DNA of 64,000 bases from Diphasiastrum complanatum (lineage: Eukaryota > Streptophyta > Lycopodiopsida > Lycopodiales > Lycopodiaceae): the NCBI GenBank assembly GCA_029204225.1, contig CM055100.1, forward strand, positions 14,636,538 through 14,700,537, written 5' to 3'. Under the pieces are notes generated by a model. That model was not told the DNA's origin. It saw only the letters and a list, made by a program, of their open reading frames with translations, and ran no database searches. Both the position numbers and the translations under genes were made by a program. Each line of letters starts with the position of its first letter. The stretch's first letter is position 1. Below are positions 3,120 through 54,024 of the stretch, in pieces.

Positions 3120-3371
3120 TAGTTAAGAAAACACAGTTTAAGCACCCGACCGGATTAATCACCACAGCACAACGTCAAGTGCAACAGGACAAGACAACCG
3201 AATAGCTCGTCTCAAACTGTATATTCAACTGATAAGTAAGTACAAAGATAAGTTGCTTAAAAGCACTCAAAGGGCTCGTGAAAGAAAGATGGCCCGATAA
3301 CTCTAAAACTAAGCACACGTGGTGCCGTCAAAATAAGAAAGCAATGTATAAGTCGATCATTGCTATTTTAA
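3120..3371 (-). repeat. LTR of copia family A (minus copy)
   Basis: On the minus strand this begins TTAAAATAGCAATG just after a purine tract (TGAGGGAGAGAG). It contains the sequence found at 7392-7645 and 41018-41251. It lies downstream of the end of the RNase H frame at 3465, the correct place for a 3' LTR. The canonical TG start is absent, so the exact edge may differ by a few bases. Confidence 0.8.
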
Positions 3372-3464
3372 CTCTCTCCCTCAATGATCAACGTCTCTCT
3401 TTATTTTAGAGTTTACTCTATTTATGGAACATACCTCCATGATAGTACTACAAGTAAAGGCTTT

Positions 3465-5795: not shown

Positions 5796-6447
5796 CTAGT
5801 CTTCCTCATGACTAGGGTTTACAGCCATAAAACTATGGATCTTTGGTTGTAGGAGATCATTTCTGGCTCTGTAAGTGCATGATGGAGGGCACCCTAGTGC
5901 TGGGAAGATAATTCCAGAAGGCCGCTGATTGCCGTGGAGAGTTGGAGGAGAGCTTGAAGGGTTAGTTGTGGGTTCATAATCACCATAGCCGTGGAGAGAG
6001 GCGATTGCAGAGAGAGGCAGCGGACAGACCTCGCGCACCTTCACCCAATCTAGCATTTAGTGTAAATAGGTGCTTAGTGCTTTAAAGTGAAGCTCTAAAT
6101 TCACGACCTCCTTGTAGATCGTTGGATCGAAGACAATGGTCAAGATGGAGTTCTCAAGAAGGAACGTGGACCACAGGATGGAGGATCACTAGTAGATGGG
6201 CTTTGAAAGGGTCTTGAAGAATTGAAAGGCAAAATAGGCCTTCTTTTCATTAAAAATTTTCAAACTGAAAAAATTGTTGGGTCCCAAGTTTTCGAAGGGT
6301 GAAGTTTCTTCACACAAACAGTTCAAAAACCCAAATTGCCCTTATTTTCACCTCCTTTAGCCTATTTTGGCCAAATGAAAGGCTATAGCCTCCAAACGAA
6401 GGGCACCCTGACTGTACCTACAAGTACAGTACACCAAAACATAGTGA
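5796..6447 (+). repeat. fragment of noncoding family H leader
   Basis: The sequence has stretches resembling 32950-33560. Shared landmarks are ACTAGGGTTTA near 5812 and the GAAGAA(A/T)TGAAAGG block near 6215, with similar order and spacing. It has no convincing coding frame. It is cut on both sides by family A copia fragments in opposite orientation, so it is a trapped piece of a larger element. Matches are diverged, and the assignment rests on several short blocks rather than a full alignment. Confidence 0.55.
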
Positions 6448-7298
6448 TGCACTATTGCTTGAATGTCGAAGTATGGCAAACTGGCAGTGATATCAGGTTA
6501 TGTCAAAACAAGTATGTGGGCGAGATATTGGAGAGATTTCACATGACAAAGTGCAAACCTTCCATCACCCCTTGCGAAGCTGGTAAGAAATTATCTCGTA
6601 TTGATGATAGTGCACATGTTGATGCTACTCTATTTCGTCACCTAGTTGGGAGTTTAATATATCTTACGACTACACGTCCTGATATCTGCTATGCTGTAAG
6701 TTTGATTAGCCAATTCATGTCATCGCCCACTATGGACCATTGGAAAACTGCAAAAAGGATTTTATGGTATGTGAAAGGTACACCTAACCTTGGCCTAATC
6801 TACAAAAGACAAAGTGTTTTACCTAAGTTGCAGGGTTATGTTGACGCTGATTGGGCAGAAAGTATAGATTATAGAAAGTCAACAACAGGTTATGCCTTCA
6901 ATTTTGGTAGCGGTTGTTTTTCATGGTCTGGCAAGAAGCAAGATACTATTTCTCTTTCTTCTACAGAAGCTGAATATAAAGCATTAAGTTCTGCTACCCA
7001 GGAAGCTGTTTGGCTACGTAAGTTATTATGTGAGATTGGCATGCAGCAGGTAAATCCTACTATTATTTTCTGTGACAGTCAAAGTGGAACACAATTGGCT
7101 AAGAATCCTATCTTTCACGCAAGGACAAAACATATTGAGGTAAAATATCACTTTGTGCGTGAGAATTTACAATCTGAAGATATAAGTATTGTACATTGTT
7201 TTACGTTATTACAAGTTGCTGATATATTTACAAAAGCTTTAAGTAAAGAAAAAATTGAGACTTTTAGAGCCAAATTTGGCTTAGATCTGGTTATGTAA
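6448..7298 (+). pseudogene. copia family A RT/RNase H C-terminal part
   Basis: An open frame covers the last part of RT and all of RNase H. It starts at the MHYCLNVEVW segment, passes through LVGSLIYLTTTRPDICYAVS and the RNase H core ([33 protein letters not shown]), and ends at FRAKFGLDLVM. The frame is intact but truncated: the RT N-terminal half with YVDD, the integrase, protease and gag are missing. The ATG at 6336 belongs to the adjoining noncoding fragment. It is the inverted partner of the minus-strand copy at 3465-4320 and is followed correctly by a polypurine tract and LTR. Confidence 0.85.
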
Positions 7299-7380
7299 AA
7301 AGCCTTTACTTGTAATACTATCATGGAGGTATGTTCTATAAATAGAGTAAACTCTAAAATAAAGAGAGACGTTGATCATT

Positions 7381-7645
7381 GAGGGAGAGAGTTAAAATAG
7401 CAATGATCGACTTATACATTGCTTTCTTATTTCGATGGCACCACGTGTGCTTAGTTCTAGAGTTATCGGGCCATCTTTCTTTTATGAGCCCTTTGAGTGC
7501 TTTTAAGCAACTTATCTTTGTACTTACTTATCAGTTGAATATACAGTTTGTTGAGAGCAATTCTGTTGTCTTATGTTGTTGCACTTGACGTTGTGATGTG
7601 GTGAATGATCCGGTCGGGTGTTTAAACTGTGTTTCTTAACTATAT
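7381..7645 (+). repeat. polypurine tract and LTR of copia family A
   Basis: The polypurine tract GAGGGAGAGAG (7381-7391) precedes TTAAAATAGC, which starts the LTR at 7392. The LTR matches the minus copies at 3120 and 41018 up to about 7645. Whether it continues further right is unclear because the other copies stop or diverge there. No second LTR is present, so no target duplication can be tested. Confidence 0.75.
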
Positions 7646-16427: not shown

Positions 16428-17130
16428 CTCCCCCTTAATCGGAATCCATGAATGCCTTGACCTTCACACTTAGTTTCGCACAGTACTTTCTATATGCATC
16501 CAAGCTTAATGCTTTAGTAAAAATATCTGCTGTCATACCTTGCGTGCGACAGCACTACAATCTGACCTCTTTGTTGAGAACTTTGCTTCTGACATAGTGA
16601 TACTTAATTTCAATGTGCTTACTCCATGAATGAAACCTAGGGTTGGCTGATAGGCTAGTGGCACTTTGATTATCACAAAATAGTAATGTCGAAGCATATT
16701 GATTCAGACTGATATCTGAAAGTAAGTTCCTCAATCAAATTGCTTCCTTTGTAGCTTGTGAGGCTGCGATATATTCTGATTCTATAGAAGATAGAGCTAT
16801 CGAAGATTGCTTGCGACTGTTCCAAAAGATTGGACCATTGTTGAGGAGGAATGTAAATCCAGAAGTGGATTTATGAGTGTCTACATCTCCTACCCAACTT
16901 GCATCTGTGTAACTATTGAGTAAATTGAGTGCTGTCCAATGTGTTATACCAGGGTTAGTCATAAACTGACTTAGGGAGCTGATTACAAAAGCTATGTCTG
17001 GCCTGGTACAAATCATTGCGTACATAAGACAGACCTTTTGTTGCATGGCTATGACTCGATCTAAAAGGAATCCTAGTATGCTTTCCAAAGATGTAGCTAT
17101 GACAGACAGGGATATCAACTTTGTGCAAGA
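16428..17130 (-). pseudogene. copia family E RNase H region, truncated
   Basis: The minus strand reads as the connection and RNase H region of Ty1/copia: ICTRPDIAFVISSLSQFM, then SYTDASWVGDVDTHKSTSGF and ALSSIESEYIAASQATKEA. The C-terminal RNase H continues below 16735 after a frame break (HIEIKYHYVRSK region near 16560) to the polypurine tract. The frame is cut at about 17130, so RT with its catalytic motif and all upstream domains are missing. Confidence 0.85.
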
Positions 17131-31221: not shown

Positions 31222-31555
31222 AGGTACATCAGACTACCGATTAGATTTTGGTAGGGTATACCTGCCATTTTCTGTTCTTCCTCTTCTGTTTTTAAACAAT
31301 TCTGCTTTGTCAGCTAGCTATCATTGGTGTGGCCTTTTCTTTGCAGTTCATCATGTAATACTGCTTGAGCACCTTTCTGGCATATTCAGACTAACTCAAG
31401 TTCATTTCGCCTTTTATTCGATCTCTTCTGATCTCCAACCCGAGGCATTTTGTTCCTTCTCCTAGATCTGTGATTTTATAATTTTCGGAAATTTGACTCT
31501 TCGTGTCTTTGATCAACATTCCTATCATAAGGGAATCATCCATGAAAATAGTGCA
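31222..31555 (-). pseudogene. copia family C RT C-terminal fragment
   Basis: The minus strand reads TIFMDDSLMIG, then DLGEGTKCLGLEIRRDRIKG and SEYARKVLKQYYMMNC, the part of RT after the catalytic motif. The equivalent region at 46574-46760 shares the FxDD form. Both ends are cut: at 31555 by family H internal sequence and at 31222 by family B gag. Confidence 0.75.
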
Positions 31556-31930
31556 AAACCGCAAAATCATCACACTCACCACTCGTCAAAAGCTTCCAAA
31601 GTGTGATTATTGACCTGTTCTTCATCCTCTGTGTGTCCCACACACAGGTTGTCCAATGCAAGTCTGCTATCTTGCCCAATGGCTTCCAATTGGCACCACC
31701 TCGCACTTCCATCACCTGTGACCGCCAAAATGTGTGTACCTCCAAGCTAGCCCATATTTCCCTCCGAAAGATAAATTTCCAAGATACAGATGCGTGTGTC
31801 AATGCAGCGATCACCTAACTTGACAATGCCACTGCCGATCGTGCCTGTGAGAGCGTTCCTCCAAAATGCCACCTGACGTTGGTCGGTTCTAACCCCAACA
31901 GGTTCACGAGAATTTTTCACCCGTAACAGC
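31556..31930 (-). repeat. family H internal fragment, inverted
   Basis: This segment is the diverged reverse complement of 34010-34395. Shared landmarks include CTCTGTGTGTCCCACACA against TGTGTGTGGGACACAT, and GCCAATGGCTTCCAATTGGCA-like blocks. It sits immediately upstream of a family H LTR in opposite polarity, so an inversion or fold-back joined them. Confidence 0.7.
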
Positions 31931-31949
31931 ATATTATGCCTACCTAGTT

Positions 31950-32410
31950 AGAAATCAGTTTTGATCTGATTCATTATTATAAGCTCTAAATGTGATATTG
32001 TAATTAGTGTACAGTTTATTTGGTTTACTGTATATGGTTGTGATCGGGACGTGACCCGTTAGGATATATTGATCGGGCACTGATCTCGTAGATGGCTACT
32101 TGGGTTAGCCGGATAGCCACATGGAAGAAATTAGCTTGTACAGAGCTATATACAATGCTTGCTATACTTGGGGGCATGTCCCAAGTTTGTTAATCGAATT
32201 TGGCCATATTGGGCCCGACCTTAGTTTGACAGGTGGTAAGCCAATTTTAGGACACCTGCCTTTTCATGCAATTTGTGAATACTCTATATGTACAGTGTTT
32301 CTTTGTAATCTAATAACTTTTGTTGTGCCATCTATGAGAGCTTGTGAGGAGTGGCTATGGTGATTGTGTGATGTGATATGCATACTGCACTAGATTCTAT
32401 CGGAATTTCA
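31950..32410 (+). repeat. family H LTR, copy 1
   Basis: The end is exact: ..CGGAATTTCA at 32410, then ACT and a Met-tRNA primer site. Similarity with copy 2 (36868-37330, minus) extends back to about 31950, including the ATTATTATAAGCTCT-like block, so the LTR is about 460 bp. A CTTTGTAATCTAATAAC stretch near 32300 may be a polyadenylation region. The 5' edge is not sharply defined. Confidence 0.75.
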
Positions 32411-32413
32411 ACT

Positions 32414-32426
32414 TGGTATCAGAGCG
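32414..32426 (+). other. primer-binding site, family H copy 1
   Basis: TGGTATCAGAGCG is complementary to the 3' end of plant initiator methionine tRNA, the usual primer for copia-type elements. It lies 3 bp after the LTR end. Confidence 0.85.
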
Positions 32427-33650
32427 TCAGGGTGTTGCAGGTATGCACGATCCGATGGAGCTATGGAATAGCGTCTTTCACCAGGAGAAATAGCACTCAG
32501 AGCATCTCAGGAGAGAGGACTCCATATAGGGTATCGGCAGTCCGGATGGCTGGAGAAAACAAAGTTCCTTCGATCGGAGCTTCAAGGAAGATCAGAACGA
32601 TCATCGTAGGTGGATTCCGAGGAGAATTCATGGTGGTTTTGGGGAAATCATCGATGGTGGCCTCATAATTCACTGTGTGGACAGCCGTTTGGTGCAACGG
32701 GGCTTGCATGGGTTTGCAAAGAGCAGTGACAGAGAGCCATTGCAATTTACAGGGTCAGATTTGATTGAACACGGTAAAAATTTGAGAAATTTCCAGTTTT
32801 GTGGGGGATTGACGGATTTCTGGGAAAATCAGCTTGTTTGCAGTCGATACCGCACCAATTGTTACATTCTAAATTGCATCGGAGAGCAAAGGTAGGGCGA
32901 CCTCTGTGGAATTGTGCACTGCAAGAAAATTGTGGTGTAAAAAGCCCAAATATCCTCTCTTTCTCACAACTAGGGTTTATATCCTGGAAGCGGTTGATCT
33001 CTCCTTGTATACAATGGATTTTTGGTCTGTAAAACCGTAGACAGAGGCGCCCAAGTATATCGAGCCTGGTGTAGGAGGGCCGTGACTGGTCGCGGGCTAT
33101 AGATGGAGTCATCTCCATTCACAAAGATCTGCCATAGTTGTGAAATCAGCAAGCTTGGAAGCTGGAGAGGAAGGAAAGAGAGAGCAGGGTCATGGACGTC
33201 GCGCACAGCCACCGCATGAAGACCCATAGCGGTTGCAGGGTGACCGTGTATGGAGGAAGATGATTTGGTGCGTGTAATGGAGAAAGGCCATTGGATCTAA
33301 GCCCATTCAAATCAACGGGCAGGTTCAAGATCTCGGGGAGCAAGCTGGACCGTCGGATCAAGGAGGACCGATGGATAGGCTTGAAAAAGGGCCCTGAAGA
33401 AATGAAAGGAAAAATAGCCATTCTACTTTACGTGAAAAAAAAATACTTAATCCACCTCGAAGTTCTAAAAATGCATTTCTTCATTAAGAAACTTCTTTGT
33501 GAAGTCGCAGTTCATTTTTGCAAGCCAAATTGGTTTGTGCCTATCTTTGGCTAAAAGGCACCTTTTTTGGCCATCCTTGGGCCAAAATAACCCCTGAAAC
33601 TGGCTGCTCAGACTAGCAGACAGAGCAACGTCACAAAGTAGGGAGAAACG
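32427..33650 (+). repeat. family H noncoding leader, copy 1
   Basis: About 1.2 kb follows the primer site. It is shared in parts with 36852-35460 (minus), 39059-38560 (minus) and 5796-6447 (+). The first ~240 bp is the most conserved, including ATGGCTGGAGAAAACAAAGT near 32547, which reads MAGENKVPSI like a copia gag start but then loses any gag similarity. The rest has no coherent long frame. This looks like a large noncoding or deleted copia derivative. Confidence 0.65.
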
Positions 33651-35459
33651 CATTTCGGAGAGTTTTCATCACCATTCTATCGAGCAAAGTGCGGGTGACC
33701 TAGTGATGGGCTACATTCGCTATTTGGGTACCGTAGGGCCAAATTTGGGCCAATTTTTGGCTAGTGAAACCTGTTACAAGGCAGTACAATGAGGCATTAT
33801 CGTTTTAGAATCATTATTACGTACTCTTGACAGGGTAACAAGGTGTTTGGAGGTGGTAAATACAGTATGGGGACGAATGGTAGCGGACTTGTGTGGAGAA
33901 AGCTAGTTTTGACGACGGAAGTGTAGTTTGGCAGCATGACTACTCATCATTGGCGACAATTTTGAGAGGGTAAGCAATCACAGTGAGAGGTAGGCATGGT
34001 ATGCCAGTTATAGGTGAAAAATTCTTGTGATCAGGTTCAACTTTTCGGGTTCGAACCAACCAACATCAAGTGGCGTTTTGGAGGAACGCTCTCATAGGTA
34101 TGATTGGCAGTGGCATTGTCAAGTCAGGTGATAGCTGCATTGACACACGCATCTATAGCTTGGAAATTTCTCATTCAGAGAGAAATATGGGCTAGCTTGG
34201 AGGTAAAAACATATTGGTAGTCACAGGTGATTGAAGTGCGAGGTGGTGCCAGTTGGAAGCCATTGGGCAAGATAGTAGACTTGATTGGACGAGCTGTGTG
34301 TGGGACACATGGAGGATGAAGAACGAGTCAATAATCACACTTTGGAGACTCTTGGAGAGTGGTGAGTGTGATGATTTTGCAGTTTTGCAGTCAGTAAGTC
34401 AATTTTGATCAAGCATTTTAGTTGTGGAGTAGTGTATCAGGTTTGTCATTGAGGAGATACACTTCAACTGCCAGTTTGGATAAGTCAAGTCAATTTGCCA
34501 TATCATGATTGCATTAGGGATACAGATTTCAGTGATGACAAGGTGCGGATTGTTTGGTTTGGGCCATGGAAGATCTCACAGGGTCATTTGGAGGGATATT
34601 GGCATGCACAGTCATGTGAGGAACTTGATGGTGGCTTTGGAGTTCACATCTCAGTGTATTCTCAAGGAGTGGTTTGGAACCATTCACAGAAGCAGCTTGG
34701 AGCTAGCTTGGGGGAATACAGGTGGGCACTACAGGGTAGATACTCAGATCTTTGTGATCAGGGATGGCATTGGAATACCTGGTAGGGATAGCACTGCGGG
34801 ATGACATGGGATGATCATCAGGGGGCAGCTATTTCATATTGGACTTGAGTCATTGGCATGGACAGGACTTACAGGTGGGATTCATGATGGAATCAGAAAG
34901 CTGCAAACCCAAATGAGCAAAGCGTGAAGCTTTGGAAGCCAGCTCTAGGTTGGAGAGCTGATGGAGATTGCACGGGCTGTGATCGGAGGGCAAACACTAG
35001 GGTGAGTGTTTTGCTAGCGATCTATTGGAGGGGACACTATGGCGAGGACTTCAAGGTATGCTCATTTGGGAGTACAGGTTGGCATTACAGCATGGGGCCA
35101 GTTTTGGACATTGGCATCGATGGGGAGGCATCTACCATCACGGGCGTGGATTAGCTACCTATAGCTTTCATGCATCTGGCTATATTTGCAGGAGCCTAGG
35201 CTTGGCATAGGTATTGGAATTTTTATGGTGCAGATTCTCAGGTGGTAAGATCAGGGATAAGCCTATAGGGAGTCACTCAGAGCCATATATCTCAGTACGA
35301 TCAGGGAGGCATTAGTCTCGGGATCCCATGAGCGATGACTTAGGGACATGCTTGCATTGGCATGGTGTTGGGTGGCACATAGCCAGGGAGAGCGAGCAGA
35401 TGCTAGGAGCCAAGTGGAGCAGGTGATGCTTTGGAGTTCGGCTTGTCTAGGGGCATTTT
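33651..35459 (+). repeat. family H internal region, noncoding
   Basis: The 1.8 kb is comparatively GC-rich and G-rich on this strand, with degenerate echoes such as GGAATACAGGTGGGCACTACAG near 34708 and GAGTACAGGTTGGCATTACAG near 35070. Frames are open for up to 99 codons but show no gag-pol motif. Only 34010-34395 has a second copy in the window (inverted at 31556). I cannot place the point where copy 1 (+) gives way to copy 2 (minus). Confidence 0.45.
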
Positions 35460-36852
35460 GGTCTAAGGCTGGCCAGAATAGGTGCCTTCTAGTCTTAGTT
35501 AGGCCCAAACCATTTTTGCCTTGCAAAATTGAACTGGTACTTCTATGTGAAGTTTTGTTGATGAAGAATTGCATTTCATGCACTTCGGGTCCAATCTCCA
35601 TTTCAAAATGAAAATTTTTAAAAAAGTTGAAGGCCCAATGGCCCTTCAAATCCCTTCAACCTTTCATGGGTCCCTTCACTTGCCATCTAATGGCTTACCC
35701 ACATCGAATGGCTCACATTGGTCTTCAATTGCCCGATCATGACCATCGATCCTTTTCAGACCTCATCTGATGATGCCTATGCCATCTACGCACCTAATGC
35801 CTTTCCTGCAGCCAATGTTCACTTCAGCACGCTATGGCCTCGCGTGAGTGACGGCCCATGGCCCTCCTCCCTTCTTCTTCACCTTTTCTCTTCTTGAAAG
35901 CTGTAAGAAATAAGCTATGGAGAGCACTTGAAAATGTGCTTCATTTTTCACAAATATCAACTCCTCTGTTCCACAGCCATCAACGACCCTTTGGATATGC
36001 ACTAGGGTGACCTACTGTGTAACTTTACAATAGCCTCAAATGTGCTCTACATGGAAAGATTTATCTCTTCCCTACTAGAAACCCTAGTCCTTAAAAAAAT
36101 GGTTGTCTCAAAGAGTTGACTATTGCACATCCAAATTTCCATGGCTACCCATGACCATCTAGCCTCTGTTCAATCATGCTTGTGCGCCAATCCTTAGCCA
36201 CTGACAGCTCCAAAACTGGTTATGTGTGGAGAAAGATCCACCATTTTTCACTTCCAAACCCTAGCTACCTTATCTCTTCCATAGCTGAGAAGATGGACAA
36301 TTGCTCCTTCTGTGCTTCATGGTTGACTCTACTCTTTTGAGATAAGCTTGGCCACAGTAGAACGATGTTGGGTAGCATTTTATAGTGCCCAATTCTATTA
36401 AAAATGGAGAAAGATCCATGACTTTATGTTTTTCCAAAAAATAGGCCACCATAGCTAGTTCCCCGACCTACTTCTTTCTCCTCACACTATAAATGGATTT
36501 CAAAATCCACTCAACCCTGAGTTACACTACCTTGCAGCCCGTTCTGATTCATTCCGCTCCCCAATTGACGGAGTACTCATAGAAATCCGACCAACTTCAT
36601 GTCATACCCACATACAACCATTTTTTTTTTTGGAGCAATTTTGCGTGAATTCACCCCGCAATTGACGTATGACGATCGTTCTAATCTTCCCTGAAGCTTT
36701 GATTGAAGGAACTTTAATGTCTCCTGCCATCCGGACTGCTGATACCCTTTGTATGGAGTCATCTCTCCTGAGACGCCCTGAGTGCTATTTCTCCTGGTGA
36801 AAGATGCTATCCCAAAGCTCCACCGGATCGTGCATACTTGCAATACCCTAAC
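35460..36852 (-). repeat. family H noncoding leader, copy 2
   Basis: On the minus strand the same order as copy 1 appears: the GAAATAGCACTCA(G)GGCGTCTCAGGAG-like block, the ACTAGGGTTTC block near 36080, and the ATGCAATTCTTCAT block near 35570 that aligns with 33470. It converges on copy 1, giving a head-to-head inverted pair. No protein-coding capacity is seen. Confidence 0.65.
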
Positions 36853-36864
36853 GCTCTAATACCA
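36853..36864 (-). other. primer-binding site, family H copy 2
   Basis: The minus strand reads TGGTATTAGAGC, one change from the Met-tRNA primer site, just after the LTR end. Confidence 0.75.
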
Positions 36865-36867
36865 AGT

Positions 36868-37330
36868 TGAAATTTTGATAGAATCTAGTGCAGTATGCAG
36901 ATCACATCACACAATCACCATAGATACTCCTCACAAGCTCTCAAAGATGGCTCAGCAAAAGTTAATAGATTACAAAGAAACATTGTACATATAGAGTATT
37001 CACAAACTGCATGAAAAGGCAGGTGTCCTTAAATTGGCCTACCACCAAACTAAGGTCGGCCGGGCCCAACATGGCCAAATTCAATCGACAAACTCAGGAC
37101 ATGCCCCTGAGTATAGAAAGTACTATATATAACTCTATACAAGCTAATTTTTCCAATGTGTGGCTACTCGGCAAACCCAAGTAGCCGGCTACGGGATCAA
37201 TGCCTGATCAATAGATCCTAACGGGTCACATCTCGATCAACACCATATGTCTCTAATAACTATATTATGTATGTTACAATGATCATTATGTATATAAAGC
37301 TTGTAATAATGTAGATGTAAGTACATCAAG
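36868..37330 (-). repeat. family H LTR, copy 2
   Basis: This matches copy 1 throughout, including GTGACCCGTTAGGAT and the block ending ATTTCAACTTGGTAT. The LTR end at 36868 (TGAAAT on the + strand) is sharp. The far edge near 37330 is set by where similarity with copy 1 fades. Confidence 0.75.
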
Positions 37331-37619
37331 ATCATGGCGGCTGCTGTCATTGTCCAAGTGGTTGCACAATATAGGAAGTGGGCGTGAGGAGCCTTCGACT
37401 ATCCAAAGTCGAGTATGTGAGGTCGATGAAGTCGACCAATCTTGATGGTCTCTGTTAAGTCGACAAGTCGAACTCCCTCAACAAGTTGGTTGACACTCTA
37501 ATGTCTTGTCTGATAATGGAATATTTCTATAGATTGTGTGACAATGCATGTAAAATTGCAGCAATGTGATTGGAACTAGATTAACATGGGATTTAGAAGA
37601 GTAGAGGAATAAATCCAAC
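37331..37619. other. short unassigned stretch
   Basis: Repeated GTCGA words (AAGTCGAGTATG, GAAGTCGACC, TAAGTCGACAAGTCGA) occur between 37397 and 37470, but nothing else stands out. Confidence 0.35.
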
Positions 37620-38540
37620 AGGCCAAAGAAAGCTCTTCATGCTATAAAGATGAATGTGACAAAACTTCTCAAGGAAATTGGTAAGTGCACTACATCTAGT
37701 GAGGATTGGGAAGCTTTAAAGAAGCTTTATGAGGCCAAGTCTACATCAAGGGTACTAACACTTAGGAGACAAATCTTTCGAAGTTTACAAAAGATGAAAG
37801 TGCTCATGCTTTTGTTTTGAGTATTAAGGCATTCAATGATGAGTTAGCATGTATTGATGAAATGATTAAGGAGGTAGAACTTGTTCAAGTAGTTCTTTAT
37901 GGCTTCTTGAATGATATGCTAATCTTGTTCAAAGTTTTTCTATTCAAAAGACTTTGCCAAGTATGGAGGACTTGCAAAAAATCTTGGTGAATGCGGAGTA
38001 TAGGCTTCTATCAAGAGGAAGATCAACTTCTATATCTCAAGTTGGAGAGGAGGAGGCTATGTCCTCAAAGGGCAAGTTCAAGGGCAAAGGCAAAGGCAAG
38101 TGGTCTAAAGGGCAAGATGAAGGTGAGGCTTCTATTTTTGTTGGCAAGAGGAAAGATAGATCTAAGCTAAAATGTTTCTATTGTGAAATCAAAGGACATT
38201 TTGCTAGTGAGTGCTTTAAGAAAAAGAGAGATCAAGGTGATAAGCAAGGAAATCTAACTCTTGATGAAAATGGTGTTGGTGATCAAAACTAAAATGATGA
38301 TGCTTTGATGCATGCTTGATCAAGAAGAAGGATATTGTGATTGCAAAACGAATAGGCAAGGTAAATTGTTCAAACTTCATGCTTGTGTTGTTGCTAACCA
38401 AGTTGGATGTATGGAAAAGAGGCAATTGTCAATGCAAGAGGTACACACAAGAGAATGGGACATCTCAACTTCAAGTCATTGGAGGTAATGGCAAGGAGGC
38501 AGGTTGTGGATTTCTTGGCCTTTGCTCAATCTTTCATTGA
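37620..38540 (+). pseudogene. copia family B gag and pre-integrase remnant
   Basis: After a frame-broken gag (EDWEALKKLYEAKSTSRVL near 37700) an open part (37954-38292) carries a basic GKFKGKGKGK stretch and a perfect CCHC knuckle (CFYCEIKGHFASEC). The protease is missing. Near 38440 the HKRMGHLNFKSLEVMARR block of the GAG-pre-integrase appears in another frame. Sequence then meets family H copy 3 near 38550. The + strand RT fragment at 39405 is probably the same element's continuation. Confidence 0.75.
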
Positions 38541-38559
38541 GCTTACTCTTGCAGCTCTC

Positions 38560-39059
38560 TGTCAGTCTGAGGTTGCCCTACCTCAAGCATTTCGATGCAA
38601 TTTTTGGCATGTTAATTGGTGCGGTATTGCTCCAAAATAGCCTGATTTTCTGAGAAATCCACCAACACCCCACGAAATAGGAAATTTTTTAAATTTTCTT
38701 AGTTTTCCACCCAATCACACCCTATAAACTGCCCTGGCTATGTAACACTGTTTTTTACAACTCTCTTGCGAATCCAATTGCTTCAACCGGCTGCCTACAC
38801 AGTCAATTACTTAGGCAATGATTTTTCCGAAATCACCGAAACTGCAAGTTTTTTCGTGTTCTCCCCGGGATCCACCTACGATGATCGTTCTGATCTTCCT
38901 CGAAGCTCCGATTGAAGGAACTTTGTTTTCTCCTGCCATCCGGACAGCCGATACCCTGTATAGATTCCTCTCTCCTGAGATGCTTTGAGTGCTATTTCTC
39001 TTGGTGAAAGACGTTATCCCATAGCTCCACCGGATTGTGCATACCTGCAACACCTTGAC
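38560..39059 (-). repeat. family H leader, copy 3
   Basis: The reverse complement of 32427-32900 with good similarity, including the MAGENKVPSI-encoding block near 38935 and the GCACCAATT block near 38625. It is truncated relative to copies 1 and 2. Confidence 0.7.
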
Positions 39060-39404
39060 GCTCTGATACCAAGTTGAAATTCCGATAGAATCTAGTGCAG
39101 TATGCAGATCACATCACACAATCATCGTAGCCACTCCTCACAAGCTCTCAAAGATGGCACAGCAAAAGTTAAGTCTATTATGAAGAAACACTATACAACA
39201 TGTGTCACTAAACTGGCCTACCACCTGCCAAACTAGAGTTAGGCCCAATATGGCCACATATAATGACAAACCCAGGACATGCCCCTGAGTATAGCATAAT
39301 GAACTCAAAATTACTGTACAGCCTAATTTCTTCCTACGTGTGGCTACCCGGCTAACCCAAGTAGCCATCTACAGGATCAGTGCCCGATCAATATATCCTA
39401 ATGG
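39060..39404 (-). repeat. family H LTR and primer site, copy 3
   Basis: The primer site (TGGTATCAGAGC on the minus strand) is at 39060-39071. The LTR starts at 39075 and runs to 39404, where it stops inside the GATCGGGCAC...TAGGAT block. Its distal ~130 bp is missing and copia RT sequence begins at once, so the LTR was truncated by the junction. Confidence 0.75.
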
Positions 39405-39774
39405 ATCTTGAGTATCAAGCTCTAATGAAGAACAACACATCGAGATTAGTGAAGCTTCCTCAGGACAAGAAGGCAATAGGATGCAAGTGGATCTACAAGG
39501 TGAAGACTAATAGAGATGGATCAATCAACAAATACAAGGCAAGGTTGGTGGCAAAAGGATATGCTCAAGAGTCCGGGTATAGATTATGATGAGACCTTTG
39601 CACCCGTGGCAAAAATGATAAGCAGTTGAGTCATTATCTCTCTTGCAACTCTTTATGGTTGGGATATATGGCAATTGGATATCACTAATGCATTCTTGAA
39701 TGGAGATCTTGAAGAGGAAGTCTACATAGAACAACCCGAGGGCTACATTTCACATGGCAAGTCTAATCATGTGT
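39405..39774 (+). pseudogene. copia family B RT N-terminal fragment
   Basis: The frame reads MKNNTSRLVKLPQDKKAIGC and KWIYKVKTNRDGSINKYKAR, then LVAKGYAQE. A frameshift near 39585 leads to DYDETFAPVAKM and LDITNAFLNGDLEEEVYIEQ. It ends at NHVY (39774), before the catalytic motif, where another element's LTR begins. It is broken and truncated. Confidence 0.8.
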
Positions 39775-40336
39775 ATTTTTTTTAAAAGAGTTTGTATTCC
39801 AGAAGGAAAAATCACTCTAATTGTATCAGAAAAGATGTCGGAATAAATGCTGGTATATTGTTCTTAATAGAATTGCAAATTCTGATGGTCATTCCGACCT
39901 ACTAGGAACTAGATGATTCCAAAAAAAATTTACACAAGAAGAAAGAGTATCCATAATTTCAGGCTTTCTAAGAACAAAGCTCAAAAGAGATGAATTCTCC
40001 ATATAAAATGAGAATATAAAGATACTTTCTCCATGCTGGTAGTTCTATTTTTTGTTATTAAAATGTCATTTGGCCAATTGCCCTAAACTTGCCCTAAATG
40101 GTAACTTTTTGGTACTTCATCAAAAAACCTAGAAATTCTAGTCTAGATGCAATGTATGAACTCAAGCTAATTAGAATGGGTCCCAATTCAACCTCATCCA
40201 TTGATCCACTTGCCAAAAATAGTACAAACACTATTTAGGCCTTCATTGACAAATATAAATCTATCTCTAAGTTGAAATTTCATGTGGGCCTCAAAATTGC
40301 CAAAATAGATCAACTAAACTAGTTGAATTTTTCACA
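39775..40336 (-). repeat. LTR of copia family F (approximate)
   Basis: On the minus strand it starts TGTGAAAAATTCAAC just after the purine tract GAAGAGGGAG. The other edge, near 39775, is inferred from the abrupt end of the RT fragment and a possible TGTATTTTTT start on the + strand. The start resembles the family B LTR (TGTGAAGAATTGCC at 55192). Confidence 0.55.
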
Positions 40337-46573: not shown

Positions 46574-47765
46574 ATTTTGACTAACTCAAAATGCATTTCG
46601 TCTTTTATTCGATCTCTACTGATCTCCAATCCAAGGCATTTTGTTGCTTCTCCCAAATCTATGATTTCATAATTTTTGAAAATCTAACTTTTCGTGTCCT
46701 TGAATAGCATCAAGGAGTTTCCTATCATAAGAGAATCATCCACGAAAATAGTCAGAATCACAAAAAATTTTCCTACTCTCTTTATGTATACATTGCAGTC
46801 TGGTTGTGTAGGAGTGAAGTCTAGAGACTTCAGAAGACTGTCGAGCTTCTTGTACCAAGCTCGTGATGTCTGCTTCAGTCCATAAATGCATCTCTGCAAC
46901 CGACAGACATATTGTCGATTGTTGAGGTCTTCAAATCCTTCAAGCTGCTTCATGAAGATTTCTTCCTCTAGATCTTCGTGGAGAAAGGCTGTCTTTACAT
47001 CAATCTGGTGAATTTCTAGATTGTGTTGTGTAGCGTATGCAAGGAGCAGTCGAATGCTTGTCATCTTGACCATTGGCGAATATGTGTTGAAAAAGTTGAC
47101 TCCGTACCTTTGTGTGTAGCCCTTTGCGACAAGCCTTGCTTTGTAACGTCCACCAATGCCATTTGATTTCATTGTTCTTTTGTATACCCACTTGCAGTTG
47201 ACGATCTTTTTATTTTTTGGCAGTGGCTCTAATGTCCATGCCTCGTTTCGCCTCATTGATTCGATCTCCTCTAACATTTCCTGCTTCCAAAATTCTCCCT
47301 ATGGACTATGGACAGCTTCTAGATATGTAGTTGGCTCTTCAGTGAAGCTGCAGTACTTGAATTATGTGTCTTCACTCCACTGAAGATTGTCAGCATATCG
47401 ATCTGGAGGTCTTCTTTGTCTTGTTGACCTTCTGGGTCTGTTTCGTCGCTGTTTGAATGTTTCTTGTTCGTGGGATTGATCTTCTACTTCATGTTGCTCT
47501 GGAGTCTGGGGCTCAACATTCTGATTTGACATCTGTCCTCAATCTCCTTCTTGAATTGGTAGCAGTGTGAAGATCTCGTAGCCTTTTTCATCCTTTAGTC
47601 CAGGGAATGTGGACTTATCGAACTTCACATCTCTACTCGAAACAACCTTCTTCGTGGTTGGATTGTATAGTCTGTACACTTGTGATCCGTTTGAGTACCC
47701 GACCATGATTGTTTGCTCTGGTTTATCATCGAGCTTGCTTCTTTTTTCTTTTGAAATGTGCTTGT

Positions 47766-48713
47766 TGTTGTAAAATCGCGTGTGGATATGAGCAGTAGCG
47801 GAAGTTTGAGGATTGAGCGCGACATGTAGGAATGGAAACGCAACAGTTAGTAGAAAAATTCATACAGATTGCGCGAATGAACGACGCAGTAGTGAGACAA
47901 AAATTGCACTCTGATTAATATCAACTGTGAGTACAATAGGTGGAAGTAATAACTTCAGCTTGCTGAGCGTGATAACGCTGGCTACAGATAACTCTAAAAT
48001 GAAAGAGAATTTCAATTAACTCAATTAACACTTACATAGCTTGAATCAGCTAATATATAGATTTACAAGTATCGAGGAACAAAAATATCTTACAAGCTTT
48101 TAATGCTATTTACGCCAGTCTTTGCATATGTACAAAGTTGGTAACCGCTAACCGCCTTTGGGATATTTGGTTGTCCAGTTGTTTTTAGGGTTGCTGATAA
48201 GTTGGCGACATCGGTCAGCCAATGTAGCAAAAACGCGAAAAAGCCAAAAAAAATCCGAAGGTGTCCTTAGACTAAAAGTATGCAACTCCTGAAGGTGCCC
48301 TTACACTAAAGGTATGTAAATCCCTAAGGCGCCTGTAGACTGAAGGTAGCGAAGAAGGCGAAAAAGAGAAAGGTGCCTTAAGAATGGTTTCTAAGGCATT
48401 CTGGCCAGCCTTATACTAAAGGCAGTAAAGAAGTTGGAAAAAGACAAAAAAGGCAAAGGTGCCTTAGATTAAAAGGCAGTGAAGAAGACGAAGGTGCCTT
48501 AAGAATGGTTTCTAAGGCATTCTAGCCACTTGGCCAGTGTGTCGCATTTTTTGCTAAGGAGCGAGAAAGGGTGAAGGTGCCTAAAAAAATTGTTGAAGGT
48601 AAAAGAAAGGAAAAAAAAATGTGAAGGTCCGAAAATATGAAGTCGGCCTTTGATTTTTCAGAATGCTCATTACTTGAACGATTTGTTTAAGTCTGAGCAA
48701 AAAAAATCTAACA
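47766..48713 (-). mobile_element. 948-bp solo LTR with target duplication
   Basis: On the + strand it starts TGTTGTAAAATCG and ends AAAATCTAACA, giving TGTT..AACA inverted ends. It is flanked by CTTGT at 47761-47765 and CTTGT at 48714-48718. Removing it and one CTTGT rejoins integrase codons (FGCATYK to HISKEKRSKLDD). No internal domain is present, so it is the product of recombination between two LTRs of a once-complete element. Minus orientation is favoured by a TATATATTAGC box near 48055 with U3 repeats upstream of it. Confidence 0.93.
48230..48600. repeat. AAGGTGCC-rich repeats in solo LTR U3
   Basis: Degenerate units carry GAAGGTGCCTTA plus a CTAAAGGCAGTAAAGAAG-like stretch. A 40-bp phrase (GTGCCTTAAGAATGGTTTCT..) occurs twice, near 48372 and 48498. 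They sit upstream of the TATA-like box in the inferred orientation. Confidence 0.8.
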
Positions 48714-50380
48714 CTTGTATGTTGCACATCCAAACACACGCACGTATGATAGATCAGGCTTTCTACTTGTCCACATTTCGTACGGTGTCTTGTTTTTCAG
48801 GGCTGTCGTTGTTGATATGTTCTGCAGATGTACTTATGATGATCTGAATTTTCTTTGAGGTGTGTCTCTCAACAAATGCCACGAACTTCTTAAAAGAGTC
48901 AAACACTTTAGATTTTTTCTTTAGGTAGTAGAGCGTTGTCATCCGGCTGTAATCATCAATGATTGTCAGGAAATACCTCAATCCTGAGAGCGAATCCACA
49001 TTCATCGGTCCACAAACATCTGAGTGGACGAGCTCAAGGACTTCTTTGGCTCTTCTTCCCTCATGTGTGAATGGATTCTGATACTGTTTTGCCTTTCTAA
49101 CAAGCTTTGCAGAACTCAGTATCAGGTCTACCCATGACTATGTCTTTCTTGTACATGTCATAAAGGCTCCTCATATTTAGATGATACATTCTCCTGTGCC
49201 AGAGCCGATCTTCATTTTCCGATGCATGCTATCACAACTGCTGATTATCTTGGCTTGGTAGAGATTTCCTTCTCTGCATCCAACTGTCAGCAATTTGTTT
49301 GTTGCTTTCTTGATCATTCGGCATGTATTGCCATCAAATAGAACTCGAATTCCAAGATCTGCCATCTTGGAGACTGATAGCAGGTCTTTTCTCAGTGAAG
49401 GTACACAGAGTGCTCCTGGTAGCTCTGCTTGACCTGATAGTGTTCACAGCTATAGAGTCCCGATGCCCTTGATATCATGTCAACTCCCATCACCTAGAAT
49501 CACTACTCTATTGTTTTTGAGCTCTCTGAAGTCGGTCAAGATTCTTTTGTTGCAAGTGATGTGTGATGTTGCTCCTGAATCAATGACTACATCGTAGTCT
49601 TGTTCAATGTAGCTTGTTGAAGTTTCATCACCTTTATCTGCATCCTTGGATGACTTTGCAACATTTGCTTTGTCAGCTTTGTTCTTTCTTTTTGGTTTGA
49701 ATCTGCAATTGTATGCAGAGTGCCCCTTCTTCTTGTAGTGCATGCAAAGTGTTGTTGGATTGAATCAGCATTTGTTGGCTGTGTATCCTGGTTTGTGATA
49801 GTGATCATAGGAAGAAGATTGTTGATTATCATTGCCTCTGCTCGAAGACTTTGTCTTGTCGAATCTGGGCTTGTTCTTGTTCTTCTTCTTTCCTTTTGTG
49901 AAGAGAGTTTTCTCTTGATCACTACTTCTTTCTCCTTTGTCCCATCAGTCTCTCATCAGCAACAAGACTGACTGCTTTGTTAATGTCATATCTGGTAGAC
50001 TCAGTATGAGCATTCTCAATGGCTGATAGGACGCAGAGAGAGATTTCATGAAGTACATCAATTGTTGTGGTGCTGGGACCTAGTGTTCCTAACCTGATGC
50101 AGTGAGTTGAGTGAAGATCATTATGATCTTCTCAACATGCTAATCCAATTGGTTGCCATCCCATCTTATGGATTGCAGTTGATTGTGAGGATGCATCACT
50201 AAAGCGGTAGTCCTCACTTCGTACTTCTACTTTAGTCTTTCCCATTATGCATGGCTGCTTTCGCAGTCTTCAATTTGCATGAGTAGATTTTCATTGATGG
50301 ATGAAACGATGATCGCCATTGCACGCTCATCCTTTCTGATCCACTCAGCTCTCCTCGGGTCTCCCTTTGGAAGCTGCACC

Positions 50381-51215
50381 TGTCAGAAATGGTGAACTCC
50401 TACAACTTTGTCGTAGCACGAACAAGGCACAAAGGTTGAACAATTCGTGCCAGTCAACATGACTTTGACTTGAAGCACGAACGAGAACAATTCGCGATAG
50501 TCAACGTGTCTTTGACTCGAAGCACAAACGATTCGCAAGTCAATCGCGAATCGCAAACACACCTCCAGGACCGCAAAGCCCAAAAAGGGGCGCGAAACGA
50601 AAACTACGAAAAGAACGAAAGCCAACGGGAGATTATGAAATAGACGAAGGAAAGTCTTTTGCGCTGGCAGCTGGCAGCTCAACAGGCTTCACATCCAGCT
50701 GAAACAAGTAGCAACGACACAGACTAACTAACTAGTTGATTAGCGTAAACTAGTGATGTGATTCTATTTTAAGCTATCTTGTAAACTCCACATAGTGGAG
50801 ATATAAACGATCCTCTCTGGATAATAATAAAGGAGTGAATACAGAGATCTGTAAGAGACAAAGAGAGACATAGCGAATAGAGTAAGAAAGAAAAGATACC
50901 ATAGCTATGCATGAAAGTCTGCCAACGAGCAAAACACAGCGAAAGAGTAGAATATCATTCCGCCAACGAGCGTGACACTGATGAATTCACTCTAACTAAA
51001 ACTGATAATTTAGTCACTCTATTTTCGTGCATATTGTCTTGTGCTGTATATGATGATTGCTAGAGTAGAATATGTTCTGTGATGTGTAGTCGAGTGTTTG
51101 GGATCCTGTAAGGGCTTCCGCACAAAAGAAAATTAAAACACAGAAAATTGTTTGCGATAAAGAAGACGGAGTGAGGACGAACACGAATCAGTCCCACGCA
51201 TGTGCTCTCGCGACA
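50381..51215 (+). repeat. 835-bp 5' LTR of copia family C, + copy
   Basis: TGTCAGAAATGG at 50381 and CTCTCGCGACA at 51215 give TGTC..GACA ends. A GATATAAACG TATA-like box lies near 50807, followed by ATAATAATAAAGG. Internal short repeats include GCCAACGAGC near 50920 and 50972, and AGCACGAACG-like words near 50420-50530. It is immediately followed by a primer site and gag, and it interrupts the gag of the minus copy. Confidence 0.85.
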
Positions 51216-51231
51216 TGGTATCAAAGACACC
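51216..51231 (+). other. primer-binding site, family C + copy
   Basis: TGGTATCAAAGACACC resembles the Met-tRNA primer site with two or three changes, abutting the LTR end. Confidence 0.7.
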
Positions 51232-51283
51232 AGGTTGTCACTACTGATATCCCAGCAGTGATTCTTCCAGACAACATAATATG

Positions 51284-54024
51284 GCTACGACAAACCAGAG
51301 TAGCAATCAGTCTCGATAGCGCAAATTACATAATCTGGAAATTCAAAATCAAAACACTCCTAAAGGGTCGGTGACCGAGCTCTCAGAGGTGCAGCCTCCA
51401 GAAGGAGACCCGAGGAGAGCTAAATGGATCAGAAAGGATGAGCGTGCAATGGCGATCATCGTTTCGTCCATAAATGAAGATCTACTCATGCAGATTGAAT
51501 ACTACGAAAGCAGCCATGCAGCATGGGAAAGATTAAAGCAGAAGTACGAAGTGAGGACTGCAGCTTCAGTCATGCACCTTCACAATCAGCTGCAATCAAT
51601 ACGGTGGGATGGCAACCAGTTGGATCAGCACGTTGAGAAGATCATAATGATCTTCGCTCAACTCACTACATTAGGACAGGAGCACCAGGTCCCAGCACCA
51701 CAGTAGCTGATGTACTTCATGAAATCTCTACCGATGTCCTATCAGCCGCTGAGAATGCTCATACTGAGTCTACCAGATATGAAATTCGACAAAGCAATCA
51801 GTCTTGTCACTGATGAGAGACTGATGAGAGACGAAAGAGAGAGAAGCAGTGATCAAGAGAAGGCTCTCTTTATGAAAGGCAAGAAGAAGAACAAAAACAA
51901 GCCAAGATTCGAGAAGACGAAGTCCTGGAATCAACAATCTTCTTCCTGCGATCACTGTCACAAACCAGGCCATACAGCCAACAAATGTTGGTTCAATCCA
52001 GCAATACCTTGCATGCATTGCAAGAAGAAAGGGCATTCTGCATACGATTGCAGATTCAACCCAAAAAGAAAAAACAAAACTAAAAAAGCAAACATTGCAG
52101 AATCTTCCAAAGATGCAGAAAGAGGAGACAAAGCTTTCACGATACTCGACGAAGCTTCGACAAGCTACTCCGAACATGACTACGATGTGGTCATCGATTC
52201 AGGAGCAACATCTCACATAACCTACAACAAGAAGATCTTGATCAACTTTCATGAACTCAAAAATGACAGAGCGATGATTCTAGGCGATGGAAGCAGACAC
52301 GATGTCAAAGGCATCGGCTCTCTATAGCTACGAACAATGTTAGGCCAAGCAGAGCTGCCATGAGCACTCTATGTGCCCTCACTTAGAAAAGATCTGCTAT
52401 ATGTCTCCAAGTTGACAGATCTAGGCATTCGAGTTTTGTTCGACGGCAACACTTGTTGTATGATCGAGAAGACGACAAACAAGTTGTTGACGGTCGGATG
52501 CAGAGAAGAAAACCTCTACCAGGCCAAAATAATCAGGAACTCTGATAGCATATTAAATGCTTCAGAAAACAAAGATCAGCTCTGACATAGGAGATTGTAT
52601 CATCTGAACATGCGGAGCCTGTATGACATGAGCACAAAGGACATTGTCACAGTTCTCAAAATATCAAGGCCCGAGGCTGAGATCTGCGAAGCTTGTCAGA
52701 AAGGCAAGCAACATCAGAATCCATTTACACACGAAGGAAGAAGAGCCAAGGAAGTTTTTGACCTTGTCCACTCTGATGTGTGTGGACCGATGAAAATAGA
52801 TTCGCTCTCAGGTTCAAAATATTTTCTAACGTTCATAGATGATTACAGTTGAATGACCACGATCTACTACTTGAAGAAGAAATCTGAAGTATTTGATTCT
52901 TTCAAGAAGTTCGTGGCATTTGCAGAGTGACACACCTCAAAAAGGATACAAATCCTTAGATCTGACAATGGAGGTGAATACAAAAGCACAGAATTCTCAA
53001 GATTCTGCGAAGAACGGGAGATTGAACACTAGTTCACTCCTGCATACACACTAGAATACAACGGTGTGGCAGAAAGAAAACACAACACTCGTCAAAGGAG
53101 CCAGATGCGTGATGGCACAGGCTCAATTGCCAGGCCAATTTTGGGCCGAAGCAATAGCTGCAGCAGTACATCTGTAGAATAGATCAACAACAATAGCATT
53201 GGAGCACAAAACACCATATGTAGACATGAAGAAAACCTGATCTGTCATACGCATGAGTGTTTGGATGTGCAGCATACAGGCACATTCCAAAGGAAAAGAG
53301 AAGCAAGCTTGACGACAAATCCAAACAAACAATCATGGTCGGCTACGTGAACGAAACACATGTGTACAGACTCTACGATCTAACCATGAAGAAGGTTGTT
53401 TCGAAGAGAGATGTGAAGTTTGACGAGTCCACATTCCCTGGATTGAAAGACGAAAGAGGCCATGAGATCTTCACACTGCCTATTCAAGAGGGAGATCAAG
53501 GATAGTCATCAAATCAGAATGCAAGACTCCAGACTCCAGAGCAGCAAGAAACAGAGGATCGATCCCATGAACAAGAAATGTTCGAGCAGCGACGAAACAA
53601 ACCTCGAAGGTCAACCAGACAAAGAAGACCTCCAGACCGCTATTCTGACAATCTTCCATGGAGCGAAGACACGCAGTTTGAGTACTGCAACTTCACAGAA
53701 GAACCAGCTACATACCAAGAAGCTATCTAGAGTCCAAAAGGAGAATTTTGAAAATAGGCAATGTCAGAGGAGATCAAGTCGATGAGGCAAAACGAGGCAT
53801 GGACATTAGAGCCACTGCCATAAAACAGAAAAGTAGTCGACCGCAAATGGGTGTACAAGAAGAAACTGAAATCAGATGGCACCATTGACCGCTACAAAGC
53901 AAGGCTTGTCGCGAAGGGCTACACGCAGAGATATGGTGTCGACTATTTCGACACATATTTGCCCATGGTCAAGATGACAAGCATAAGGCTGCTCTTTGCA
54001 TATGGCACACAATACAATCTAATT
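51284..54024 (+). pseudogene. copia family C polyprotein, + copy
   Basis: Gag begins near 51284, with ANYIIWKFKIKTLLKGR and, after a frameshift at about 51370, DPRRAKWIRKDERAMAIIV. It has two consecutive CCHC knuckles (CDHCHKPGHTANKC and CMHCKKKGHSAYDC). Protease follows (DVVIDSGATSHIT, 52185), then GAG-pre-integrase (LYHLNMRSLYDMS, CEACQKGKQH). Integrase has the first Asp in LVHSDVCGPM and the second in RSDNGGEY, then RT start (DRKWVYKKKLKSDGTIDRYK). Stops occur in gag (51705), after protease (52327), and at several points in the integrase (about 52850, 52930, 53030). It ends inside RT at about 54024. The 3' LTR is missing and it cannot be autonomous. Confidence 0.88.

Follow-up and report, generated by a model that had tools for sequence, protein, structure and literature searches.

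A high-copy noncoding long terminal repeat retrotransposon family in Diphasiastrum complanatum, probably derived from a long-leader copia lineage

The 64,000-nucleotide stretch of Diphasiastrum complanatum DNA analysed here (the window; G000:C9:14636538-14700537, in a genome of 1.74 Gb) contains, between positions 31552 and 39407, a set of pieces which all belong to one repeat family, designated H. This family is in all likelihood a non-autonomous long terminal repeat (LTR) retrotransposon, resembling the large retrotransposon derivatives (LARDs) and descended from copia elements whose leader measures about 1.3 kb, and sequence comparison makes its mobilisation by borrowed enzymes of a related copia element likely. 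A preliminary description of the window had proposed a large, high-copy noncoding family moved with foreign proteins, and this is borne out by the LTR pairs, target duplications, primer site, purine tract and absence of gag-pol. Its further proposal, that H parasitises copia machinery, gains likelihood from the homology of the H leader to that of a gag- and integrase-bearing copia family, designated M.

Ten loci fetched around a match to the core of H yielded three complete elements of 5133 bp (L010), 4986 bp (L007) and 3399 bp (L004, whose interior is shortened), which display the hallmarks of an LTR retrotransposon. They have paired LTRs, each about 470 bp long, a primer site of Met-tRNA type directly adjoining the LTR, a purine tract and 5-bp target duplications. 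The primer site, TGGTATCAGAGC, is taken by us to be of the initiator Met-tRNA type. A further eight LTR pairs were retrieved, in two of which one LTR is cut short, and target duplications were found to be perfect in seven of nine testable elements, with agreement at four of five positions in L010 and three of five in copy B. The LTRs lack the canonical TG..CA termini and are instead bounded by AGTTAG..AACT (AG..CT), with variation in the last letter or letters in copies C, D and L007; in seven of the nine elements perfect duplications lie directly at these bounds. The two LTRs of a copy differ by Kimura two-parameter (K2P) distances of 0.0255-0.0674 in nine copies, which at a rate of 1.3e-8 per site and year, taken from grasses and not calibrated for this genome, would correspond to insertions about 1-2.6 million years ago. 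The core is 87.6-90.9% alike across the ten loci, which had been chosen for a core match.

The coding capacity of H was examined at several levels. The longest open frames of L010, L007 and L004 comprise 106, 143 and 132 amino acids, as compared to medians of 119, 126 and 117 and 95th percentiles of 168, 192 and 156 in 100 letter shuffles of each element, and among seven H frames submitted to Pfam six matched no family and one gave a value of E 0.18, below the cut-off. When copia proteins were compared by tblastn with the interiors of these three elements and of the three window copies, no firm match was obtained once the H tail contained in a query frame of another copia family, K, had been set aside (best E 0.002 over 38 amino acids; positive control 2.5e-67). 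This includes the longest window copy (copy 1, 31946-35450), in agreement with the earlier statement that no gag-pol lies inside, and an own pol with integrase preceding reverse transcriptase, the copia hallmark, was not found in the complete copies. Since complete copies are noncoding and nevertheless carry target duplications, H would have moved by means of foreign proteins.

Pairing of primer sites with purine tracts, using 81 of 100 primer-site and 99 of 100 tract places listed on C1-C3, gave 20 coupled copies, 13 spanning 4.0-5.0 kb, four 1.8-2.6 kb and three 8.3-10.6 kb. The three long ones (L148, L149 and L150) were considered as coding members and rejected, being filled by other retroelements as named by eye. 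L149 contains K inside an H copy, with the 5' and 3' halves of K oppositely oriented, as after an inversion with breaks in K and H. Thus, as in LARDs, protein-coding capacity is lacking in the complete copies and coupled pairs, with locus L026, where a decayed copia RNase H occurs, as a possible exception, and a large noncoding interior is conserved, as seen for the core in the ten loci and for the 3' tail in 58 of 60 sampled junctions.

That H is repeated beyond chance follows from 615 genome-wide occurrences of the exact word joining tract and LTR and 535 of that joining LTR and primer site, each reversed word being absent (0 occurrences); rough first-look searches returned 1,686 candidates with a core piece and 1,675 with the leader start. 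The first 60 listed places per junction word were sampled, for the tract on C1-C2 and for the primer site on C1-C3, skipping one C2 tract place already contained in L002 and one C1 primer-site place already contained in L007. H was recognised at 58 of the tract/LTR places and at 54 of the LTR/primer-site places, the other six of the latter belonging to other families, and the H 3' tail extends over at least 37 bp in those 58 and over at least 250 bp in 49. The two remaining tract places are L044, an H LTR fragment in an unrelated copia integrase (L071), and the unexplained L011 (G000:C1:3338730-3339500), where the H tract and LTR start follow sequence unlike H with a longest frame of 62 amino acids, perhaps a different interior. 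A variant tract pattern, GKGGGAG, precedes the LTR start at one place. Sense-strand copia protein lies within 700 bp before the tract/LTR word at two of the 60 places (L044 and L026); antisense matches in L013, L024 and L049 are taken as nested elements, and many K_pol matches at residues 1-36 reflect H tail sequence included in that query frame. As a separate observation, near-identical H LTR ends occur on the same strand 12.57-12.65 kb apart at C18:30928928/30941577, C19:159275/171909 and C8:42112385/42124950, the C18 and C19 places having no primer site after them at one mismatch, and these may be a duplicated block or a long element.

The origin of H is indicated by its leader. Matches between H and M leaders reach 86.8 bits, as compared to 32.6 for the best of 200 shuffles of one M leader and none with reversed sequence, and the M-like stretch runs up to the core, entering it by about 60 bp in L010. 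M is a copia family by its proteins, with a gag of the Retrotran_gag_2 type (E 3.9e-32) and an integrase piece matching rve (5.9e-13), so that the H leader is homologous to that of a coding copia; the ends of the M LTRs were placed without bounding duplications. Two of the primer-site word families, L076 and L092, have leader parts resembling those of both H (48.3 bits for L076, 42.5 for L092) and M (103 and 62.5, respectively), with no match to reversed sequence, and in the group of L083/L084, L106 and L117 no leader match to H above shuffles was found beyond the primer-site word. K was rejected as a close partner, as its LTRs have TG..CA ends and its leader matches H with 28.3 bits at best, within the range of shuffles.

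The same comparison changes the meaning of a short frame beginning MAGENKVPSI, which had been regarded as a gag-like start. Its ATG can be located in 44 of 54 sampled H copies, where the frame closes after two amino acids in eight and measures 43-46 in 17; it has 40 amino acids in the window, and the 94-amino-acid version of L075 matches no Pfam family. In two M copies showing both features the gag (Retrotran_gag_2, DUF4219) starts 1,297 and 1,320 nucleotides after the primer site, and because gag in this relative begins only at about 1.3 kb, the MAGENKVPSI frame is read as part of the leader and not of gag.

Several results weigh against the view that H is a noncoding derivative served by a copia relative. 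Without the primer site the LTRs of H and M are only weakly alike (E 5e-4 for one M copy and 0.21 for the other), and no intact coding element with the LTR of H was found. None of the 60 LTR/primer-site places matched any of 18 copia protein pieces by tblastn within the next 731 nucleotides at E 0.01, which favours the noncoding view, but this reading length falls short of the 1.3 kb preceding M gag, and taken alone the sample is weak evidence against coding members. Sampling covered exact junction words on C1-C2 (tract) and C1-C3 (primer site), so that diverged or rare coding members could escape. L026 has the layout that a coding member of H would have, at one of 60 tract/LTR places. Conserved RNA structure in the leader, a possibility raised earlier, gave no signal over its first 215 nucleotides, the fold energy being -13.1 versus -9.99 +/- 2.93 in column shuffles (z -1.06; 29 of 200 as low); this test used 44 copies, that is the 54 less six with deletions, insertions or truncation and four near-duplicates.

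Two further searches were directed at a coding partner. With the MAG peptide 150 of 1,272 candidates were scored, with frames of 41-228 amino acids; the 228-amino-acid frame (L169) is a fusion of H and M, and one of two 166-amino-acid frames (L170) contains no copia gag by eye. As M gag lies 1.3 kb away, this search is weak for finding coding members. With reverse transcriptase, 150 of 119,354 candidates were scored and 18 were read 2 kb downstream, of which 16 are one family (at least 95% alike, the comparison spanning just 83 bp in L164 and 131 bp in L165), with a G tract before TGTTGAA seen in four of these. None of the 18 has a 3' region in common with H, and the search is uninformative for H. 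The similarity of L160, L161 and L166 to L010 falls in DNA flanking the element, and L151, which matches the tract loosely, has a TG-type end.

At one of the places examined the H leader was found to be followed by copia polyprotein sequence, in the form of a junction with M gag that departs from the usual make-up of H. At G000:C20:6345300-6347300 (L169 and L171) an H 5' LTR, complete in L171 and preceded there by TTTTG, is followed by about 240 nucleotides of leader and then by M gag. The change-over falls in a short stretch common to both families near GCAGTTT..TGG, immediately ahead of the M start codon, and the frame is interrupted. This architecture makes it conceivable, if doubtful, that the join is a mobile recombinant generated by template switching in a shared particle, with M or a sister family feeding H. 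It is a single case whose 3' end was not seen, no further place with this LTR end near the fused copy on C20 was found among 100 listed of 399 (down to part of the two-mismatch class), and DNA-level recombination or insertion beside a truncated M would look alike. None of the 39 others among the best 40 matches of the fused gag coincides with the best 40 H leader places, and the other 39 of the best 40 H leader matches end at or before the junction.

The fused copy and L026 also bear on the improbable alternative that H is an autonomous copia family whose copies seen here are merely decayed or internally deleted. L026 (G000:C1:32628620-32629390, minus strand) contains a decayed copia RNase H with in-frame stops (E 4e-12, and 7e-14 in a smaller search with the same query). 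About 75 bp beyond its end come shortened pieces of H tail, the longer of which are about 75-80% alike to L010 and L007, and then the usual GAGCTTAAGGGAGAG tract and the H LTR start; no other LTR is evident in the intervening 75 bp. L026 may descend from coding members of H or may have arisen through recombination. Part of its RNase H is 71% alike to window positions 16565-16788 on the minus strand. Decay is further suggested by private internal deletions in several copies. L004 is one of these, and in three of 54 copies (L085, L094 and L113) the first 66-70 leader nucleotides are fused directly onto the core by recurrent deletions with nearly the same left point. Against this alternative, core and tail are common to the whole family and not a different remnant in each copy, the H interiors failed to match copia proteins where the control succeeded, and 17 of the 20 coupled copies are too short for a leader plus gag-pol. 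Moreover, the fused copy carries a gag of M, and three further loci of M have their own long upstream sequence, two with the exact primer site.

As a non-autonomous derivative of copia, H would have a noncoding core and tail, together about 3 kb, in place of gag-pol, with the LTRs, primer site, leader and purine tract retained. Its RNA would be transcribed from its own LTR and packed in particles of a related coding copia, Met-tRNA would prime its copying by the foreign reverse transcriptase, and the foreign integrase would insert the product, leaving 5-bp duplications. Tentatively, the long-leader copia lineage may have switched its LTR ends from TG..CA with a change in the end preference of its integrase, in which case H would retain such ends so that this integrase can act on it, and the H/M fusion would be a trace of shared particles; this speculative extension draws on the AG..CT ends of H, the AG start beside the L026 RNase H, AACT before the primer site in L076 and L092, and AAGT in M.

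In the window, H is represented by the following pieces.

31946-32412, plus strand: complete LTR of copy 1, 467 bp, AGTTAG..TTCAACT, its ends set by the target duplications of other copies
32413-32424, plus strand: primer site of copy 1, TGGTATCAGAGC, exact and abutting the LTR, read from the sequence
32425-32640, plus strand: conserved leader start of copy 1 (about 220 bp), mean pairwise identity 0.877 over 44 copies
32546-32668, plus strand: 40-amino-acid MAGENKVPSI.. frame of copy 1, not gag, read from the sequence
32641-33457, plus strand: hypervariable leader of copy 1, its 3' part homologous to the long leader of copia M by sequence comparison
33458-35450, plus strand: noncoding core of copy 1, about 2 kb, matching the ten core-selected loci at 87.6-90.9%
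31552-31945, minus strand: core fragment of an older antisense copy to the left of copy 1, core 538-939 (corresponding to window 33988-34389)
35450-36865, minus strand: older antisense copy (copy 2), core start (35455-35587, matching 33458-33588) and leader
36853-36864, minus strand: altered primer site of the older copy, one change, read from the sequence
36866-37255, minus strand: LTR of the older copy, the match starting at LTR position 87
38569-39059, minus strand: leader of copy 3, by sequence comparison
39060-39071, minus strand: primer site of copy 3, TGGTATCAGAGC, exact, read from the sequence
39072-39407, minus strand: LTR of copy 3, the match starting at LTR position 108
about 5800-6271, plus strand: diverged leader pieces, 70-86% alike to variable leader segments of other copies

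The three LTR-plus-leader pieces and their primer sites, the middle one with one change, were correctly recognised in the preliminary description, and the shared LTR of about 460 bp applies in full to copy 1 only, the other two matches beginning within the LTR. Copy 1 LTR plus leader is 86% alike to the 36866-37255 piece over 608 bp and 77% to the 39072-39407 piece over 874 bp, and after the primer site strong similarity extends for about 220 bp in copy 2 and about 490 bp in copy 3, with hypervariable sequence beyond, instead of the reported leader of over 1 kb. The fourth leader piece, placed at 5796, is found as the diverged pieces, whose direct match to the window leader is limited to 97 bp at 71% (6149-6244). 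Copy 1 has lost its 3' tail and 3' LTR, and its LTR start directly adjoins position 31945. In the simplest reading of this arrangement, 31552-31945 and 35450-37255 would together represent a single older antisense H copy into which copy 1 inserted, and a later loss would have removed the 3' end of copy 1 together with about 400 bp of the older copy. A palindrome formed in one event, self-primed or by inverted duplication, to which the order LTR-leader (plus), core, leader-LTR (minus) across 31946-37255 might point, is very unlikely, as the antisense core at 31552-31945 fits the left half of the minus copy, copy 1 starts exactly at its LTR beside it, the arms are merely about 86% alike, and insertion of H into H with later loss accounts for all pieces.

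Copy 3 adjoins, and is partly embedded in, sequence of copia family K, which is present in the window at 37616-38462. The K gag found here (37616-38306) is 76.5% alike to one with an open frame elsewhere in the genome, and reverse-transcriptase-like sequence follows at 39408-39790 (read by eye only). By eye, pol sequence is apparently absent beside the H LTR pieces inside copia integrase regions, at L071 6461-6718 and at window 38569-39407. Rfam returned nothing at gathering score in 31500-39900, and no tRNA was detected in the window by ARAGORN (bacterial code). Large inverted repeats of other families are located at 3129-7634 (arms of 616 bp, 95%) and 47017-54021 (arms of 546 bp, 81%).

H is a known kind of element, as noncoding LTR groups, the LARDs and the terminal-repeat retrotransposons in miniature (TRIMs), are already described in the available part of PMC7215508, and it is thus not undescribed as a kind, as had been surmised. 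It shares with LARDs such as Sukkula the lack of gag, pol and env, the LTRs, a core domain and the assumed trans-complementation (PMC7215508, in part). That part also ascribes a well-conserved RNA secondary structure to LARDs and TRIMs, and since the leader start of H gave no fold signal over its first 215 nucleotides, H is called LARD-like and not a LARD. TRIMs such as Cassandra are likewise noncoding LTR elements, with short LTRs and almost no interior according to the same part of PMC7215508, whereas H measures 3.4-5.1 kb with LTRs of about 470 bp and is not a TRIM. H further differs from LARDs by its LTR of about 0.47 kb and its copia-related leader. The LTRs of barley LARDs measure about 4.5 kb. 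Dasheng, a gypsy-type partner of RIRE2, belongs to pairs in which a coding family feeds a non-autonomous one; like H it is a high-copy noncoding LTR family, the difference being that no coding partner of H is identified by shared LTRs. Dasheng and SNRE-S have been suggested to need enzymes of other elements (PMC3701649, in part).

In having LTR ends other than TG..CA, H resembles the plant elements Tos17, TARE1, AcCOPIA1 and the Rosaceae TGTT and AACA families, several such elements being copia-like and two AACA families appearing to be TRIMs in the available part of PMC5659011. The AG..CT ends lie outside the five non-standard pairs named in that part (TG-GA, TA-CA, TG-TA, TG-TT and AA-CA), and no claim is made that they are new in print. 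The LTR Assembly Index (LAI) pipeline, in the available portion of its description, runs LTRharvest with the motif TGCA and one mismatch allowed, and LTR finders set to TG..CA could miss families such as H or mis-place their bounds. H is a noncoding family present at hundreds of copies or more in this genome, and its odd LTR ends, its shared leader and the two rare joins to copia genes provide a handle for asking which coding copia would mobilise it.

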